From assembly GCA_021778115.1 (NCBI GenBank), contig JAJYCS010000022.1, positions 1-32,472 of the forward strand: a DNA stretch of 32,472 bases. The letters run 5' to 3'. The position numbers were made by a program, and so were the translations under genes. The notes beneath the pieces are model-generated. The model was not told the origin of the DNA, ran no database searches, and saw only the letters and a list, made by a program, of their open reading frames with translations. Positions 2,087-22,413 of the stretch are shown one piece after another. Each line of letters opens with the position of its first letter. Position 1 is the first letter of the stretch. Source of the stretch: Deltaproteobacteria bacterium. GTDB taxonomy: Bacteria; Desulfobacterota; Desulfuromonadia; Geobacterales; Pseudopelobacteraceae.

Positions 2087-3367
2087 ATGTCCCGATTGCT
2101 GGCGCTGTTTTTGTGCGGCACTCTCCTCTCCCTCACCGTGGCCCGCCCCGCTCTGGCCGAACTGGACGACTCATCCCTTTTTATGGAGGCGTTTACCGCC
2201 TTTCAACACAAGGATTACCTGCTCAGCATCGAGAAGCTAGGCCAGCTGAACCAGCAGTTTCCCGATTCCCCCCTGCGGGATGTCTCGCTGCTGATGCAGG
2301 CCCGCTCCGAACAACGGGCCGGAGACAACGAGGCGGCCGGCCGCGCCGTCAACCAGTTCCTGACCGAATTCGGCAGCAGCACCCTGGCTCAGTCGGTTGA
2401 AGACGAATTACTGACCTTGGGTAAACGGCAGAAGGCCGGTGAACGGTTGATGCCGAACCGGCACCTGCAACTGGCGGCACAGCAGGTGCGTACTGAACGG
2501 CTTGCCCTCGAACGTGCGGCGACCGAACGGGCCGAACGGGAACGGTTGGCCAGGGAAAAGGCCGAACAGGTGCGATTGGCACGGGAAAAGGCAGAGGGAG
2601 AACGCCGAGAGCGGGAACGGCGGGCGGCCATCAAGGCGGCCCGCGCGGCGATCCGTTGTACCATCGAACTACCTGCAGGCCCTCTCGCCGCAGATGCGGG
2701 TAGTGCGGTTACCGTTCCCTTCGGGCTGACAAACCGAAGCCCCGCTGCAGAGCCGTTTACCGTTACCGGGATATTCCCCAAAGATCTGGATGGGACGATA
2801 ACCGCTGCCGATCACCCGCAACAGGGCCTCCCCCCCAAGATACTGCTGCAACCCGGCGAACGGTTCAAGGGCGAACTCCACTACACCATACCGGGCAATC
2901 TCGTTGACGGTTCCCGACAGAGCGTTGGCGTTACGGCCGCTTCCGCAACCTTTACCGATCTGGTACAGACCAGGATTGTACCGATAGCCGCACAGGCGCC
3001 CCTACTCCGCGCAGTGGCCAAGCTGCAGCAGCCCATCGCCGCCGCCGGGGACAAACTGGGCTATCGGGTAACCATCTTGAACGTCGGTTCGCGGCCGGCA
3101 CGCGAGGTCGATCTGCGGATCACCCTCCCCCCCCAGCTCAAACTGCTTGATGCAGGCGCCGGCGGCTGTTGGATTGAGACCGAGCAACTGGCCGCCTGCC
3201 GCATCAGCACTATCGGCAGCGGCACACTCAGCGAACGCCTCCTGACGGTTGCCGTACGCCACACGGCCAAAGGTCAGAACCTGCGGGGCACGGTAGAAGT
3301 GCTGCAGACCGTGCTGCAGACAAAGGATACCTTTCCAGGGGTCGGATTCAGCATCAAGGCTCCGTGA
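2087..3367 (+). CDS. secreted protein with TPR-like, coiled-coil and DUF11-like regions
   Basis: I do not recognise a named family for this 426-aa protein. It has a clear Sec signal peptide (residues 1-24, ending ARPALA). A helical TPR/YbgF-like stretch follows (about 28-115, with [20 protein letters not shown]). Next is a highly charged coiled coil (about 130-185) built on near-repeats of RLAREKAE. The C-terminal half is beta-rich, and [19 protein letters not shown] followed by [10 protein letters not shown] resembles the DUF11/CARDB type of extracellular beta-sandwich. It is therefore probably periplasmic or surface-exposed, perhaps an envelope scaffold (inference). ATG 2087 is 5 nt after the rpoD stop, with GGAG at 2075-2078, so it is likely co-transcribed with rpoD, an unusual partner for a secreted protein. 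Confidence 0.8.
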
Positions 3368-3374
3368 ACCGCAC

Positions 3375-3393
3375 TATGACATACTCTGTCATA
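3375..3393. terminator. inverted repeat between convergent genes
   Basis: TATGACA (3375-3381) and TGTCATA (3387-3393) form a perfect 7-bp hairpin with a 5-nt loop in the 92-nt gap between the rpoD-linked secreted gene (+) and proB (-). A weaker dyad, GCTGT/ACAGC, lies at 3429-3442. There is no U-run, so a factor-independent terminator is uncertain. A bidirectional 3'-end structure is the simplest reading. Confidence 0.35.
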
Positions 3394-3459
3394 ATCACAC
3401 CGCCTATTGCAGTATCAGTATAGCAGCGGCTGTCTGTACAGCAGCCATACGCGCCGGCA

Positions 3460-4581
3460 TCAGGTAAGCACCAGGTTATCCCGGTGGATCACCTCGTCGC
3501 CGTAGCGATAACCAAGCAACACTTCGATATCACCACTTTTATGCCCCGCCAACAGGGCGATCTCCCGGCTGCCGTAATCAGCCAGACCGCGGCCAATCTC
3601 CTGACCATCGGGACCGCAGATTCGCAGACAGGCCCCCCGGTCGAAGCGTCCCTCCACCGCAGTCACCCCGGACGGCAACAGGCTGGTCCCCTTTTCCACG
3701 AGCGCCGTACGGGCGCCGGCATCCACCAGCAGACGACCGGTGGGACGCAGGGTATAGGCGATCCAGTGTTTCCGGAGATTCATGCCGGCGGCGGCCGGCA
3801 GAAAAAGGGTGCCGACCTCCTCGCCGGCCATGGCGGCCGCAATGACCCCAGGGCGCTTACCACAGACCATAATCGTCGGAACCCCGTGTTTGCCGGCCTT
3901 TTTGGCAGCCGCCACCTTGGTGGCCATGCCGCCGGTACCCACACTTGAGCCGCTGCCGCCGGCGGCCCGTTCCACCTCACGGGTGATCCCCCGCACCACC
4001 GGGATCAGACGGGCATCGGGGTTGGCACGCGGGTCGGCGCTGTAGAAACCCTCGATATCGGTAAGGATCAGCAACAGCCCAGCCTCGGCCACGTTGGTAA
4101 CCAGGGCCGACAGGTTGTCGTTGTCGCCAAACTTGATCTCATCCACCGCCACGGTGTCGTTTTCGTTGATCACCGGCACCGCACCGGCGGCCAGGAGTTC
4201 GTCCAGGGTAGCGCGGGCATTTAGAAACCGCTGGCGGCTGCCCAGATCATCGGCGGTCAAAAGAATCTGCCCCACCGCCAGCCCGAACGGCGCAAAGGCC
4301 TCTTCATAGGCCCGCATCAGGCAGGTCTGGCCCACAGCGGCGGCCGCCTGTTTCTGGGGGATGGTACGGGGCCGTTCGGTCATCCCCAAGGCGCTGCGAC
4401 CGGCCGCCACCGCGCCGGAAGAGACCAGCACCACCTGGATACCGTTGGCCACCAGCCCGGCAATATCGGCACTGATCTGGCCCACCACACGGTAATCGAG
4501 ATCGCCATGTTCGTCGGTCAACACCCGGCTGCCCACCTTGACCACAATCCGACGGGTCTGCGGCACCAGCTCCCTGCGCAT
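3460..4581 (-). CDS. proB: glutamate 5-kinase
   Basis: ProB phosphorylates L-glutamate to glutamyl-5-phosphate, the first committed step of proline synthesis. The 373-aa protein has the amino-acid-kinase fold: [13 protein letters not shown] (about 10-22), [17 protein letters not shown] (about 50-66), [20 protein letters not shown] (about 137-156), then [12 protein letters not shown]. The last ~80 residues form a PUA domain (from [17 protein letters not shown]), as in full-length bacterial enzymes. The start is ATG 4581. It overlaps the obgE stop as TGATG and is preceded by AGGAGGAG, so it is translationally coupled to obgE. A longer frame from 4608 lies inside obgE and is unlikely. proA is not in the window. 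Confidence 0.96.
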
Positions 4582-5597
4582 CACCACTCCTCCTGCGGCG
4601 GGCCCCAAAGCCGCTGTGCAATAGCATCCAGCAACGCTTCCACCCCTTCGCCGGTGGCCGATGAGATCGGATAGACCGCGATCCCCCGTTTTTTAAACCA
4701 AGCCGCGGCCTGCTCCAGCTGTTCCCGTGCCGTGGGCAGGTCCATCTTGGTCAGGGCCACGATCTGGGCCTTACCTCCCAACTCGTTACTGAACAGGGCC
4801 AATTCGCGGTTCACCGCCTCAAAGGCGCCGAACGGGTCGCTGTCCGGCAGGCCGGAGATATCCACCAGATGCACCAAGATGCCGGAGCGTTCCAGGTGTT
4901 TGAGAAAACGATGCCCCAGACCGGCGCCGGCATGGGCGCCCTCGATGATGCCGGGGATATCGGCCATCACGAAGGAACGATAATCCTTGTACGCGACGAC
5001 GCCCAACGAGGGGGCCAGGGTGGTAAAGGGGTAATCGGCCACCTTGGGGCGGGCCGCCGATACCTTGCTGATCAGCGACGACTTACCGGCATTGGGCAGC
5101 CCCAGAAGCCCCACGTCGGCCATCAGCTTCAGTTCCAGGCGCAGCTTGCGCTCCTCCCCCTCTTCACCCGGCTGGGCGAACTTGGGGGCCTTGTTGGTGG
5201 CGGTGGCAAAACGGGCATTACCCTGACCGCCCCGCCCCCCTTTCAGCAATACCACCCGCTGGCCGCTTTCGGTCAGGTCGGCTAACTCCTCCCCACTCTC
5301 GGCATCGTGGACCACCGTCCCCACCGGCACCTTGATGGTCAGGTCTTCCCCGGCCGCCCCATGGCGGTCCTTCCCCATGCCATGCCGCCCCCGTTCCGCC
5401 TTCTGATGAGGCTTGTGGCGTAGTTCCAGCAGGGTCGACTGGGCAGACGTCGCTTCGAAGATGATATCGCCGCCACGACCGCCATCGCCACCGTCCGGGC
5501 CACCGAAGGGAATGAACTTCTCCCGGCGGAACGACACACAGCCGGCACCGCCGTGCCCCGAGGCGCAGTGCAGGGTGACTTCATCGATAAACTTCAT
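4581..5597 (-). CDS. obgE: Obg family GTPase
   Basis: This 338-aa ribosome-associated GTPase acts in 50S subunit maturation and stress/growth control. The N-terminal Obg fold is glycine-rich ([20 protein letters not shown], then [14 protein letters not shown]). The G domain starts near residue 160 with the P-loop GLPNAGKSS, followed by [12 protein letters not shown] (switch I), [10 protein letters not shown] (G3) and TKMD (G4). It lacks the long C-terminal OCT extension of some homologues. The start at 5597 overlaps the upstream rdgC-like stop by ATGA, and its own stop overlaps proB, so three genes form a tight coupled unit. rplU-rpmA, common upstream neighbours of obg, are absent here. Confidence 0.97.
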
Positions 5598-6763
5598 GCC
5601 CCATACCCTTCCAGCCAGGCGCTGATCTGCTGTTGCCGCTCGGCCCAACCTGCGCCGATACGCTCCGTGAGAAAGGCCAGATACAACGAATCGAACATCT
5701 GCAGCCCTGCCTCCAAGAGGTACATCCGTTCGTAAAAGGCCGACTCGCGCTCGGAGAGCTCCTCCACCCCTTCCCGCTCCAACTTGACCGGCGGGCACTT
5801 AAAGGCGCCGAAGGTGAACAGCTCGGCGTTCAGCACAAAACGCCACTGCAGCTCGTCCTTCTCCAGGTAGATGGCGGCGTTGCTGATCGTCTTGCCGCTT
5901 TTGAGGGCCGACCGGGCCTCCAGATAACTGTCCTGTGAGCCGCTGACCGCCACCTTCTGCGGGCCGGTCTCACCGCCCCCCTGCAGTTGGATCCGGTCAT
6001 CGATCCAGGCGCTGAACGGGGTGCCCTGGTCATACGTACCTGCAACCTGTACCCGGAAATTCCCCCCCTCCAGGCCCGCCTGCAACAGCCAGAGCAGGAA
6101 CTCCTCCCCCAGCCAGCGGTTGCTCTGGATCTCGTCCAGGGCCGCTTCGGAGGCGGCCAGGTTAAGGGTGGCAAGCCGTTCCTGGCCTTCCGCGTCCAAG
6201 AGCCCCACGGCCCGCCGGTAGGGGTAGATCAGTTGGGGGCGCAGGTTCTCAAAGCTCTTGCAGAACAGCTCCTCGAAACGCTCCATGGCCGTGGAAGATG
6301 CGGAAAAGAGGGTCAGAAGGGCGGTCTCCGGCTGCCATACCAGATCAACCGTCGCGGGAGTTGGCAGCACGCGGGTCAGCAGGCCGAGCTTCACCCGCTC
6401 GGCAATCTCTTCGCGCTCCCGCTTGGGTGGGCGTTTCAGCTCAGGGCGCTTGGCGAGATACTCCCCCTCTGCCCGGCCGATGTGGGACTTGAAGAGGGCG
6501 GCCGGGATCCGCCGCTGATCACGGCGGCAGCTGAAGAAGAGGTAGCGGTCGCGCCAGAAACGGGAGGGAAGATCAAAGGCCGGATCATCAGGGGTGTCGG
6601 TACAGGTCCATCCTTCCGATTGTTCCTCGGCAGACTCCTCTATGGAGTTGAAACGCCGCCCTGAAAGTGCTGCTGAGAATACGGCAAAACGCTCCTGCCG
6701 AGAGGGGAGCTCGCCGATGACACGGTACTGCGCAAAACTGACGCTGTTTGCATAAACGCCCAT
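5594..6763 (-). CDS. rdgC: RdgC-like recombination-associated protein
   Basis: This 389-aa protein resembles RdgC, a DNA-binding ring protein that modulates RecA-dependent recombination. The supporting segment is residues ~95-175: a conserved-looking helix with [20 protein letters not shown], then [20 protein letters not shown] and [16 protein letters not shown]. This mirrors the RdgC pattern of basic helix, LLPRAF-like turn and strand. It is clearly longer than the ~300-aa enterobacterial protein and is divergent, so the family call is moderate. ATG 6763 ([10 protein letters not shown]) is preceded by AAAGG about 11 nt away; upstream in-frame ATGs have no ribosome site. The stop overlaps the obgE start (ATGA, 5594-5597), tying it to obgE-proB. 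Confidence 0.7.
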
Positions 6764-19885: not shown

Positions 19886-21064
19886 ATGTCCATACGCTCC
19901 CTTGAAAACGCCATCATTCGCCTCCTGAAAAACCGGCCCTTTTACGGCCACCTGCTCTTACACCTGCGCCGTGAACCGCTCGAAGGGAGCGCCAAGGCGG
20001 CGGGGATAACCATCAGGGGCGGAATCCCGGTGCTCAGTATGGCTGCCGATGCCTTCGGCTCGCTGCAGATGGGCCAGCAAGAGGCGCTGCTGGAACACCT
20101 GCTCAAACATCTGCTGCACCTGCACCCGCTGCGACGGCGGGAACGGAACCCCCACGACTGGGACGTGGCCTGCGACCTGGCCATCAACCACGGCATCGAC
20201 AACCTGCCGCCCGGGGCACTCTATCCGGAAAACTACCAGCTTGAACCGGGTCTAGCCGCCGAGGAGTACTATGCCCTGCTCGTCCCGCCATTCGACACCG
20301 GCAACCTGGAGGGGAGCGGCGTCGGCTCGGCCGAGGAGGAGAGCAGCGGCGCGGCGGGCAGCGGAGCAGGAGATGCACTACAGGAAGCCACAACCATCGA
20401 CAGCCACGAGGCCTGGCAGGAGGCGGACGGCACACCGCTGACCCTGGCGGAGGAGATGGTGCGCAGCCTGGTGCGGGACGCCCTGCGGGGCAGCGACGGC
20501 GAGACCCCATCCGATATACGAGCACTCGTAGGAAACCTGCTACAACCGGCGCCGATCCCCTGGCGCCAGATCCTGCGTCAATTTGTGGCAACCGCCGGCC
20601 GGACCGGCCGCAACACGACCTGGATGCGGGAGCACCGCCGCTTTGAGCATGGCACCCCCGGCATCCGCAAACGGCGCAAGCTGAACCTGCTGGTGGGAAT
20701 TGATGTCAGCGACTCCACCAATATCGTGGCGTTGCGCGAGGCGTTTGCCGCCGAACTGGTCAACCTGGCCCGGGGGCGCGACTGCCAGCTGACCGTGGTC
20801 TACGCCAACAGTCGTATCCAGCGGGTGGAAAACTTCAGCAGCAGCTCCGTCGTTACCCAACGGTACGATGGCGGCGGCTTCACCGACCTGCGGACGGTGT
20901 TCGACTATGCCCAAACCCTGCATCCGCTGCCGGCCGCGGTGATCTACCTGACCGACGGCATCGGCCCGGTGCCTGAGCGGATGGCGTTCCCCACCCTGTG
21001 GGTGCTGACCAGCGAGGGTGAACGGCCGGCCCCGTGGGGGGTGGAACTCAGGTTGGCGGTATGA
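19886..21064 (+). CDS. DUF2201-type VWA/metallopeptidase-like protein, Glu of HExxH missing
   Basis: This 392-aa protein has an N-terminal putative metallopeptidase region and a C-terminal VWA-like domain, normally encoded beside a MoxR-type AAA ATPase. Residues 71-83 read HLLKHLLHLHPLR. The His ligands of an HExxH...H site are kept, but the catalytic Glu is Leu. WDVACDLAINHGIDNL (about 92-107) is the usual next motif. A disordered acidic/Gly-Ser linker spans about 138-180. The VWA MIDAS motif DVSDS is at 273-277, with GGGFTDLR and IYLTDGIG after it. No ATPase is adjacent. The start has no ribosome site and is probably leaderless. The 3' end overlaps the convergent glycosylase gene by 17 nt. 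Confidence 0.85.
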   Translation: MSIRSLENAIIRLLKNRPFYGHLLLHLRREPLEGSAKAAGITIRGGIPVLSMAADAFGSLQMGQQEALLEHLLKHLLHLHPLRRRERNPHDWDVACDLAINHGIDNLPPGALYPENYQLEPGLAAEEYYALLVPPFDTGNLEGSGVGSAEEESSGAAGSGAGDALQEATTIDSHEAWQEADGTPLTLAEEMVRSLVRDALRGSDGETPSDIRALVGNLLQPAPIPWRQILRQFVATAGRTGRNTTWMREHRRFEHGTPGIRKRRKLNLLVGIDVSDSTNIVALREAFAAELVNLARGRDCQLTVVYANSRIQRVENFSSSSVVTQRYDGGGFTDLRTVFDYAQTLHPLPAAVIYLTDGIGPVPERMAFPTLWVLTSEGERPAPWGVELRLAV

Positions 21065-21986
21065 GATAGCGGCTCCCCCGCCGCTTGAGAAACCCTTCAC
21101 CCACCATCGCCGCTAAAATAGGTTGCAGGCGATCATCCGCAACCGCCAACCGCTGCCGCAGGGCAGCAGCGGTCATGCCGTCCGCCCCCAACAGCAGACG
21201 GACCAACGCCCCGCGAATCTGACGGTCCGATCCCTCAAACCGGCTCTGCACGGTATGGTGCCGGCTCCGGCGGCTGGGGTTGGGAAAGCGCCGTTTCAGG
21301 TCGCTCCCGTAATCCATCAGGGCGTTATACCAGTCGCGGGGCTGCTCCCGGTCCACCACCTGTCCGGCCAGCACCAGCAGTTCCTTGTCCGGCACCGCGC
21401 AGCGGCCGGCACAAAACAGGTGCAGCAGCACGGCGCGGATATTGGTCTCCAGAAAGGACTCAGGCCGGTTAAAGGCAAAGGCGGCTATGGCGCCGGCGGT
21501 GTAGGGACCGATGCCGGGCAGTTGGCAGAGCAGTGACGGGTCATCCGGCAGCACGCCATCCCAACGGGTAACCACCATCTGGGCCGCACGTTGCAGGTTG
21601 AGCGCCCGCCGGTTGTAGCCCAGCCCCTGCCAGGCCGCCAGCAGTTCCGGCAGCGGCGCCGCTGCCAGAGCAACCGGATCGGGAAACCGCTGCAGGAAGG
21701 CACAAAACTTAGGAACAACACGGTCTACCTGGGTCTGCTGCAGCATCACTTCCGACACCAGCACCTGCCACGGATCGCAGGTCCGCCGCCACGGCAGATC
21801 ACGATACTGCCCTGCGGCATACCGCCATACCAGCTGCCGGAAATCGCCGATCACACCGGGCGTCATCCCTTCATCAGCATAGCGCGCCTTAAGGGCGGCC
21901 TCAGCTGCGGTATCCTCTCCCACCGGCCACGATACCGCTCCCCGCTTGCAGTCAGGCACGATCTTTTGGTAGGCTGGATTGGACAT
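21048..21986 (-). CDS. MutY-like HhH-GPD DNA glycosylase lacking the FeS cluster
   Basis: This base-excision repair glycosylase resembles MutY (adenine opposite 8-oxoguanine). Evidence is RDLPWRRTCDPWQVLVSEVM with LQQTQVDRV (catalytic Glu79), AAWQGLGYNRRALNLQRAAQ, and the helix-hairpin-helix LPGIGPYTAGAIAAFAF. The Asp of MutY's LDGN motif is Glu here (FLETNIRAV, E180). The four cysteines of the FeS loop are absent; instead there is MDYGSDLKRRFPNPSRRSRH and FEGSDRQIRG, typical of a separate FeS-free subfamily. A winged-helix-like tail follows and no NUDIX-type domain is present. The start is uncertain: ATG 21986 is given, 21866 is where family similarity begins, and 22007 has the best ribosome site but overlaps the divergent gene's start. 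Confidence 0.88.
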   Translation of the reverse strand: MSNPAYQKIVPDCKRGAVSWPVGEDTAAEAALKARYADEGMTPGVIGDFRQLVWRYAAGQYRDLPWRRTCDPWQVLVSEVMLQQTQVDRVVPKFCAFLQRFPDPVALAAAPLPELLAAWQGLGYNRRALNLQRAAQMVVTRWDGVLPDDPSLLCQLPGIGPYTAGAIAAFAFNRPESFLETNIRAVLLHLFCAGRCAVPDKELLVLAGQVVDREQPRDWYNALMDYGSDLKRRFPNPSRRSRHHTVQSRFEGSDRQIRGALVRLLLGADGMTAAALRQRLAVADDRLQPILAAMVGEGFLKRRGSRYLIPPT

Positions 21987-22005
21987 CTTCTTCTGCGAGG
22001 TCCCC

Positions 22006-22413
22006 ATGGACACCCCTCTACACCCGATGACCGCCGATTCGGTCCGGGAACTTCTGGAAACCGCCGGAGCCGAGGTAATGGCACGTTCCGGTCGTTCTGA
22101 CAACTACGGCGCACCCCGCGAATTTTCCTTTGAGGTGAAAGGGATCTTTCCCAATGGCATGGCCCTGCATATCGTGGCCCGCCAGTTCAACTACCGAGAC
22201 CCCTGGGAGGCGGCAGGACGGGTCAACGACCAGGTTGACGTGTCACTTCTCAAGGGTGGCGAACTGACACCTCTTCCCAGAGGCTACCCTTTTTTCCAGG
22301 GGAGCGACGAAGAGACCGGCATTGATGAAGAGACCCTGCGGGAGATCATTACCGCCGTTCAGGCGGTGAATCCAAAACTTTACGCGTTGCAACGGATCAC
22401 CGGTGATCTGTAA
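22006..22413 (+). CDS. hypothetical protein, 135 aa
   Basis: I do not recognise this protein. It is soluble, without signal peptide or membrane segment, and appears alpha/beta: a helix (DSVRELLETAGAEVMARSG), then strands (REFSFEVKGIFPNGMALHIV), a DPWEAAGRVNDQVDVSLLKG segment, and a C-terminal helix (TLREIITAVQAVNPKLYALQ). It could be a small house-keeping fold of unknown role. ATG 22006 has GAGG 6 nt upstream. A weak promoter (TTGCAG, 18 nt, TAGGCT at 21946-21975) lies ahead of it. It is divergent from the MutY-like gene and convergent with the small membrane protein gene. Confidence 0.7.
   Translation: MDTPLHPMTADSVRELLETAGAEVMARSGRSDNYGAPREFSFEVKGIFPNGMALHIVARQFNYRDPWEAAGRVNDQVDVSLLKGGELTPLPRGYPFFQGSDEETGIDEETLREIITAVQAVNPKLYALQRITGDL

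Follow-up and report, generated by a model that had tools for sequence, protein, structure and literature searches.

The DUF2201 protein encoded in the window, by which we mean the whole stretch of 32,472 nucleotides that was analysed, represents a form of a known family that is clade-wide, apparently evolved twice and has lost the Glu of its HExxH motif. Within a remodelling complex of the MoxR-type AAA+ kind, the protein probably acts as the VWA adaptor, and its zincin-like domain would now be a non-hydrolytic binding module. In Pfam, DUF2201_N is a putative metallopeptidase domain, yet at least two clades without the Glu keep the remaining site and the ATPase partner, which argues that the lasting role of the domain in those clades is binding or remodelling and not cutting. 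Together these proteins provide a natural experiment on the function of MoxR/VWA pairs, in which Glu-plus clades can be set against Glu-minus clades and linked partners against unlinked ones. The features of the locus are collected in Table 1.

Table 1 Features of the DUF2201 locus, in window positions
Feature	Position	Strand	Evidence
Gene for DUF2201_N (pseudo-metallopeptidase) + DUF2201 VWA-like protein	19886..21064	+	ORF, Pfam, orthologues, omega
Zincin-type motif H71-L72-L-K74-H75-L-L-H78-L-H80, Leu at the Glu position, extra His at +7	20096..20125	+	Alignments
Invariant D97 in the CDLAIN helix	20174..20176	+	12/12 diverse homologues
MIDAS DxSxS (D273, S275, S277), completed by T333 and D357	20702..20716	+	Alignments, VWA fold
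135-aa protein without a family, third member of the gene set	22006..22413	+	Neighbourhood, co-occurrence

The DUF2201 protein and its degenerate zincin motif

The gene encodes 392 amino acids with no internal stop, and its product belongs to the family by both of its Pfam domains: PF13203 (DUF2201_N) matches residues 5-253 with 84 bits against a cut-off of 23.2, and PF09967 (DUF2201, VWA-like) matches residues 269-390 with 55.5 bits against a cut-off of 26.4. Orthologues are present in relatives, where the gene order is partly kept, and an omega of 0.18 against the locus L059 indicates purifying selection. In PHROGs, the protein matches phrog_1314 with 161 bits. The label of this phage family, to which DUF2201/VWA proteins match, is ‘HNH endonuclease’. 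Various phage records (H34, H36, H38, H40 and others) give the same name to DUF2201 proteins, and it looks like a propagated mislabel. No functional study of any DUF2201 protein was found in the literature searched, a body of work to which subscription journals contributed little, and the passages of PMC4193335 consulted give no function. The genus of the window is probably Trichlorobacter, as the protein of a related genome (G003, L135) equals the T. thiogenes protein (L078) in the tree.

A preliminary description of this DNA reported that the protein keeps three histidines with Leu in place of Glu, and alignment of 12 diverse proteins (the window protein and 11 plasmid and phage homologues) bears this out, with H71, H75 and H80 in place and L72 at the Glu position. 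The register is correct because the Glu column aligns as E in 11 of the 12 proteins, the window protein with its Leu being the sole exception. All 12 proteins of this alignment agree at H71, H75, H80, D97, N101 and the residues of the MIDAS, and in a larger alignment the same His/Asp/Asn and MIDAS positions are invariant in every row that has a letter there. Replacing a Glu codon (GAG) by the Leu codon (CTG) takes two base changes and, since the loss is also common to the clade, L72 is no sequencing slip. With its preceding residue the motif reads E70-H71-L-L-K74-H75-L-L-H78-L-H80, which brings out an extra histidine, H78, that was absent from the earlier description. H71, H75, H80 and D97 are putative metal ligands, with D97 a likely addition to the three His. 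Measured against an active zincin-type metallopeptidase (HExxH), the protein has the His and the further putative ligand residues and lacks the Glu after the first His (L72 here, and 0/112 readable members of its clade with Glu). Loss of the Glu alone is no proof that all catalysis is lost.

Structure prediction can add detail to this picture. The model used was based on 71 sequences (pLDDT 80.7; an earlier model from 19 close sequences, with a pLDDT of 53.8, was set aside) and has a pLDDT of 86-98 over residues 1-130. A predicted helix at residues 62-77 takes in H71 and H75 and stops just short of H78; positions i, i+4 and i+7 (H71, H75 and H78) would share one helix face. Profile matches of the N-terminal part to M48-type entries are weak (E 0.03-0.38), and no zincin entry stands among the PDB structure-search matches shown, which VWA matches fill and which are uninformative on the N-terminal fold. 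In the case of the C-terminal part, residues 264-392 of the predicted model match a VWA fold (best Z 12.6 over 129 residues, rmsd 2.5). The MIDAS had been described as intact (DVSDS), as it proves to be: D273, S275 and S277 are present together with T333 and D357, so both the DxSxS...T...D pattern and the fold of a VWA domain with MIDAS were found.

Distribution of the Glu-less form

The base sample comprised 147 related genomes, of which 120 have PF13203 matches. The motif region was read in 119 of these, leaving out G008, in which a contig end leaves only the C-terminal part of the match. Six of the 119 form a second Glu-less clade, and G041 is unreadable, being a false match that scores under the cut-off, has an internal stop and looks like a different sequence. 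Among the 114 readable rows left, the paralogues L035 (from G090, with Glu) and L425 (from G079, degenerate) were set apart, which gives 112 clade members. Loci of two genome collections overlap in part, and the clade count is therefore taken from the 119-genome reading; the motif search in some loci used H or N at +7, where a miss would register as unreadable, and none did.

Glu is absent in 112/112 readable clade members, where its place is taken by L or by another small or hydrophobic residue (C, M, A, V or G), and His at +7 (H78) is present in all 112. The residue before the first His (E70) is E in 108/112 and Q or R in the other four, and K is found at +3 in 97/112. The Glu-less form is thus clade-wide and not an oddity of the window's genome. 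The motif as first described stands in its His and Leu, and the idea that it is peculiar to this locus falls, since most close homologues also lack the Glu. By comparison, Glu is kept in 104/104 outgroup proteins counted, none of which has His at +7; this set (22 outgroup proteins, L035 and 81 viral proteins) was gathered with related queries and is no census. A distant DUF2201_N protein, L141 (G427), keeps the Glu (HEVGH) and has Thr at the position of the third His, and the third His is therefore not universal outside the counted set. In the larger alignment, L035 (a paralogue with Glu) and two truncated sequences are counted among the 46 ‘main’ rows, and L135-L140, six rows labelled ‘out’, are members of the main clade; L144, which is under the Pfam cut-off, and L141 were left out beforehand.

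Other departures from the full motif were also seen. In a further viral set, Glu is present in 73/76 proteins, a count that includes near-duplicates, omits a fragment (L337) from the 77 loci and comes from queries that favour like sequences, so that it is no census either. The other three (L271, L272 and L273, from IMG/VR) lack both the first His and the Glu, which are replaced by QN in another, deeper loss of the site. The paralogue L425 (G079:C18:80285-80656) is a second, degenerate DUF2201-like copy with no Glu, no His at +7 and a damaged AIN helix. At G028:C1:339543-340176 the DUF2201 gene was matched as two pieces and contains an in-frame TAG, which represents either a broken gene or an assembly error.

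Phylogeny and the second Glu-less clade

The tree was built from 90 rows; truncated and over-extended sequences were dropped beforehand, as were three of the four viral ones. The main Glu-less clade is monophyletic with 100/100 support and has a long stem; its placement close to Glu-plus proteins from Bacillota and from a Moorella phage is weakly supported (92/70). The second Glu-less clade (L029-L034) comes from six genomes of one genus within the same order, is likewise monophyletic (100/100) and is nested among Glu-plus proteins. Joining both Glu-less clades costs 78 log-likelihood units (AU p = 0.0008, from 60 rows with the motif columns removed), though the tested group was defined by the trait after the first tree had been seen and long branches are in play. 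The tree has two changes, and the Glu was apparently lost separately in the second clade, a case that is strong but not final.

The motif of the second clade is HLxxHxxHLH, with Leu for Glu and with His at +7 in five of the six proteins and Asn in the sixth. The residue at -1 is Ala in 6/6, the residue at +3 is Met, and the MIDAS is present. This parallel loss of Glu and presence of His at +7 in two clades is the most unusual feature described here. In the one second-clade locus that was opened (L083, from G133), an ATPase ORF (4689-5780) lies directly upstream of the DUF2201 gene and, at 42.5 bits, is over the AAA_5 cut-off. Profile searches of the six second-clade genomes found neither the window-type ATPase nor the 135-aa protein. 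The L083 locus also contains an encapsulin-like gene (3196-4029; Linocin_M18, 229.7 bits), some 0.65 kb upstream of the paired ATPase and DUF2201 genes.

The partner ATPase

No AAA+ ATPase was seen on reading the ORFs of the window, and the preliminary description had concluded that the protein has no partner ATPase. Own-genome scans with Pfam AAA_3 and AAA_5 seemed to agree with this. The AAA matches that were opened are presumably an ExeA-like protein (L080) and RuvB together with a DnaA/Hda-like protein (L081); the remaining ones, many in frames of 460-570 aa, are tentatively taken to be NtrC-type regulators and the like. The partner-absent reading was rejected when a profile from relatives found the ATPase. 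In these relatives, a gene for a 352-aa AAA+ protein immediately precedes the DUF2201 gene, and a profile built from eight such upstream genes matches 115/147 genomes. In the window's own genome it gives a single match of 655 bits, an intact 357-aa ORF on another contig (G000:C82:12746-13801, minus strand), with what we take to be Walker A (GHRGVGKT) and Walker B (VHCDEL) motifs. The claim is therefore wrong at the level of the genome: the partner is unlinked and not lost, because the ATPase is found elsewhere in it. The first scans overlooked it because its AAA_5 score (19.9 bits) falls under the cut-off of 22.

Since the Pfam AAA profile is not reached, calling this ATPase ‘MoxR’ rests on likeness, a PHROG match and gene context. 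It matches phrog_1297 (‘ATPase’) with 152.6 bits, and so each of the two proteins has a counterpart among the phage families, the window protein in PHROG 1314 and the ATPase in PHROG 1297. A PDB search with the ATPase profile found no entry.

Linkage and co-occurrence both tie the two genes together. The ATPase gene lies on the same strand and at most 600 bp upstream of the DUF2201 gene in 77 of the 111 genomes that have both, an adjacency in relatives that also speaks against a peculiarity of this locus. It is not adjacent in the other 34, including each of the 13 genomes in the window's genus that carry the two genes, although in some draft genomes among the 34 (G008 and G099) one gene runs into the end of a contig and adjacency is possible. 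Across the 147 genomes, 111 have both genes, three DUF2201 only, four the ATPase only and 29 neither; these are raw counts within one class that ignore shared descent and treat the six second-clade genomes as lacking the window-type pair. Among the three DUF2201-only genomes, one is the false match of G041 and the two others are 85% and 53% complete. The partner AAA+ protein expected of a MoxR/VWA pair is present in the genome and linked in relatives. Following the unlinked ATPase gene on contig C82 is a rubrerythrin-family gene (L121 4214-4681, 49.3 bits). This neighbour was dropped as a hint to the client, as it recurs only at G006 among seven other unlinked ATPase loci opened, of which the G007 locus is cut off on the rubrerythrin side.

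The third gene and its neighbourhood

The third member of the gene set lies in a longer ORF (21979-22413), within which the start in Table 1 was chosen. It adjoins the DUF2201 gene in 12/21 loci of a first neighbourhood set and in 18/20 loci picked for adjacency of the ATPase and DUF2201 genes (for a few loci of the 20-locus set, ORF picking preferred an antisense ORF to the gene for the ATPase or DUF2201). The protein is present in 110/147 genomes; all three genes are found in 107 of the 147 and none in 22. It has an omega of 0.11 against L059. No match was obtained in Pfam, NCBIfam, PHROGs or PADLOC, nor in the plasmid and phage collections searched. Among 297 sampled genomes of the phylum, 11 have the 135-aa protein and exactly these have the ATPase; all belong to one class, which we take to be Desulfuromonadia.

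In the window the mutY gene, on the opposite strand, separates the DUF2201 gene from the 135-aa gene. This arrangement is that of the window's genus and is found likewise in 7/21 loci. The longest mutY ORF (21048-22103, minus strand) shares 17 bases with the 3' end of the DUF2201 gene, and its other end lies inside the 135-aa gene. Beyond the three genes, none is common to more than three of the loci compared (the window and 20 loci, each from a different genome), and conserved neighbours were rejected as hints to the client.

Proposed function and alternatives

The mechanism proposed is that a hexamer of the ATPase binds the VWA protein in the manner of NorQ/NorD, that the MIDAS grips the client and that no peptide bond is cut. 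By analogy, the former peptidase domain may serve as a binding module in a client-remodelling machine. In the genomes, the ATPase is a fixed partner, adjacent in most and in trans in the window's genus, and the 135-aa protein is a further one. An adaptor role is the likeliest because of the analogy with NorQ/NorD, in which a finger enters the pore and the client depends on the MIDAS. The suggestion of a non-proteolytic adaptor in the preliminary description gains indirect support from sequence: the Glu is absent in every readable clade member, yet H71, H75, H80, D97, N101 and the MIDAS are kept, at an omega of 0.18. The His site may bind a metal, as the same description suggested for zinc.

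A more specific and considerably more tentative proposal is that the His-rich helix (H71, H75 and H78, with H80, D97 and E70) is a rebuilt site that carries metal into a client while the ATPase opens the client, as NorQD does with iron in NO reductase. In this form, the catalytic Glu would have given way to a third His of the helix in two lineages, giving the metal-holding site of an ATP-driven machine for metal insertion or client opening in Geobacter-type bacteria, with a lineage-specific 135-aa subunit and a client other than an oxidase; this, too, we regard as a speculative possibility. Loss of Glu is coupled to gain of a His, presumably on the same helix face, in two separate clades (112/112 and 5/6), and simple decay would not predict such a coupled change. 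The ATPase also matches phrog_249, ‘porphyrin biosynthesis’, with 30.2 bits, and MoxR/VWA pairs are known as metal-insertion machines (PMC13036017 and PMC9976466). However, H78 lies just beyond the end of the predicted helix, and the Glu-less L425 and viral L271-L273 gained no His, the latter three having also lost the first His. The best-known type of client is excluded for the window's genome as well: PF00115 (heme-copper oxidase/NO reductase) has no match at E <= 1e-30 in this genome (G000) and 11 more of the 15 genus genomes, the gene set being present in several of them. A client of this type was therefore rejected for the window's genus.

It is improbable that the protein is still a peptidase in which E70, or an incoming residue (for example from the 135-aa protein), takes over the role of the Glu. 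Such a substitution could draw on the retained putative ligand residues and on E70 itself, which adjoins H71 in 108/112 clade sequences; however, the position is Q or R in the other four and Ala in all six proteins of the second Glu-less clade, and a helical E70 would face away from H71 and H75. Finally, a pseudogene or a vestigial locus following loss of the ATPase, for which the window without an ATPase and the splitting of the DUF2201 gene from the third gene by mutY in this genus might speak, is very unlikely, as the ATPase is present in trans, 14 of the 15 genus genomes have the motif region read with no stop in the match (the other, G008, has just the C-terminal part, next to the end of a contig), and decay is disfavoured because of purifying selection on both the DUF2201 gene (omega 0.18) and the 135-aa gene (0.11).

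Comparison with known systems

The proteins described here share with the wider DUF2201 family (PF13203 + PF09967, COG3864; HExxHxxxxH) the order of domains, the three His, the Asp/Asn helix and the MIDAS. In 9/13 annotated outgroup loci of this family, the surrounding 4 kb hold a gene annotated as an ATPase, NTPase or ATP-binding protein, which is named AAA or MoxR in six. The main clade differs in having Leu, Cys, Met, Ala, Val or Gly for the Glu, the extra His at +7 and mostly Asp, not Asn, after Trp92. The second Glu-less clade resembles the main one in its His motif, its MIDAS and, in the locus opened, an upstream ATPase ORF, whereas it is separate in the tree, has an ATPase over the AAA_5 cut-off, Ala at -1 and Met at +3, and had no 135-aa protein detected in its six genomes.

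NorQ/NorD is like the gene set here in joining a MoxR-type ATPase to a VWA protein with a MIDAS and an N-terminal domain, and CbbQ/CbbO and RavA/ViaA likewise pair a MoxR-type ATPase with such a VWA protein. To our knowledge, the N-terminal domain of NorD is not a zincin relative. Unlike the setting of NorQ/NorD, the window's genome has no PF00115 match at E <= 1e-30. According to PMC13036017 and PMC9976466, the finger of the VWA protein enters the ATPase pore in NorQ/NorD, and the client needs the MIDAS.

The MoxR-vWA ternary conflict systems offer a second comparison. The three proteins have no match among PADLOC defence models at E <= 0.01 and, unlike those systems, the 135-aa protein has no family match and the gene set has no sign of VMAP, iSTAND, FtsH or beta-propeller components. 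A further point of difference from these systems (PMC7159879) is that the gene set here lies within one class in the phylum sample. According to the same source, the conflict systems consist of MoxR, vWA and a third conserved protein, and this three-part make-up is shared by the gene set described here.
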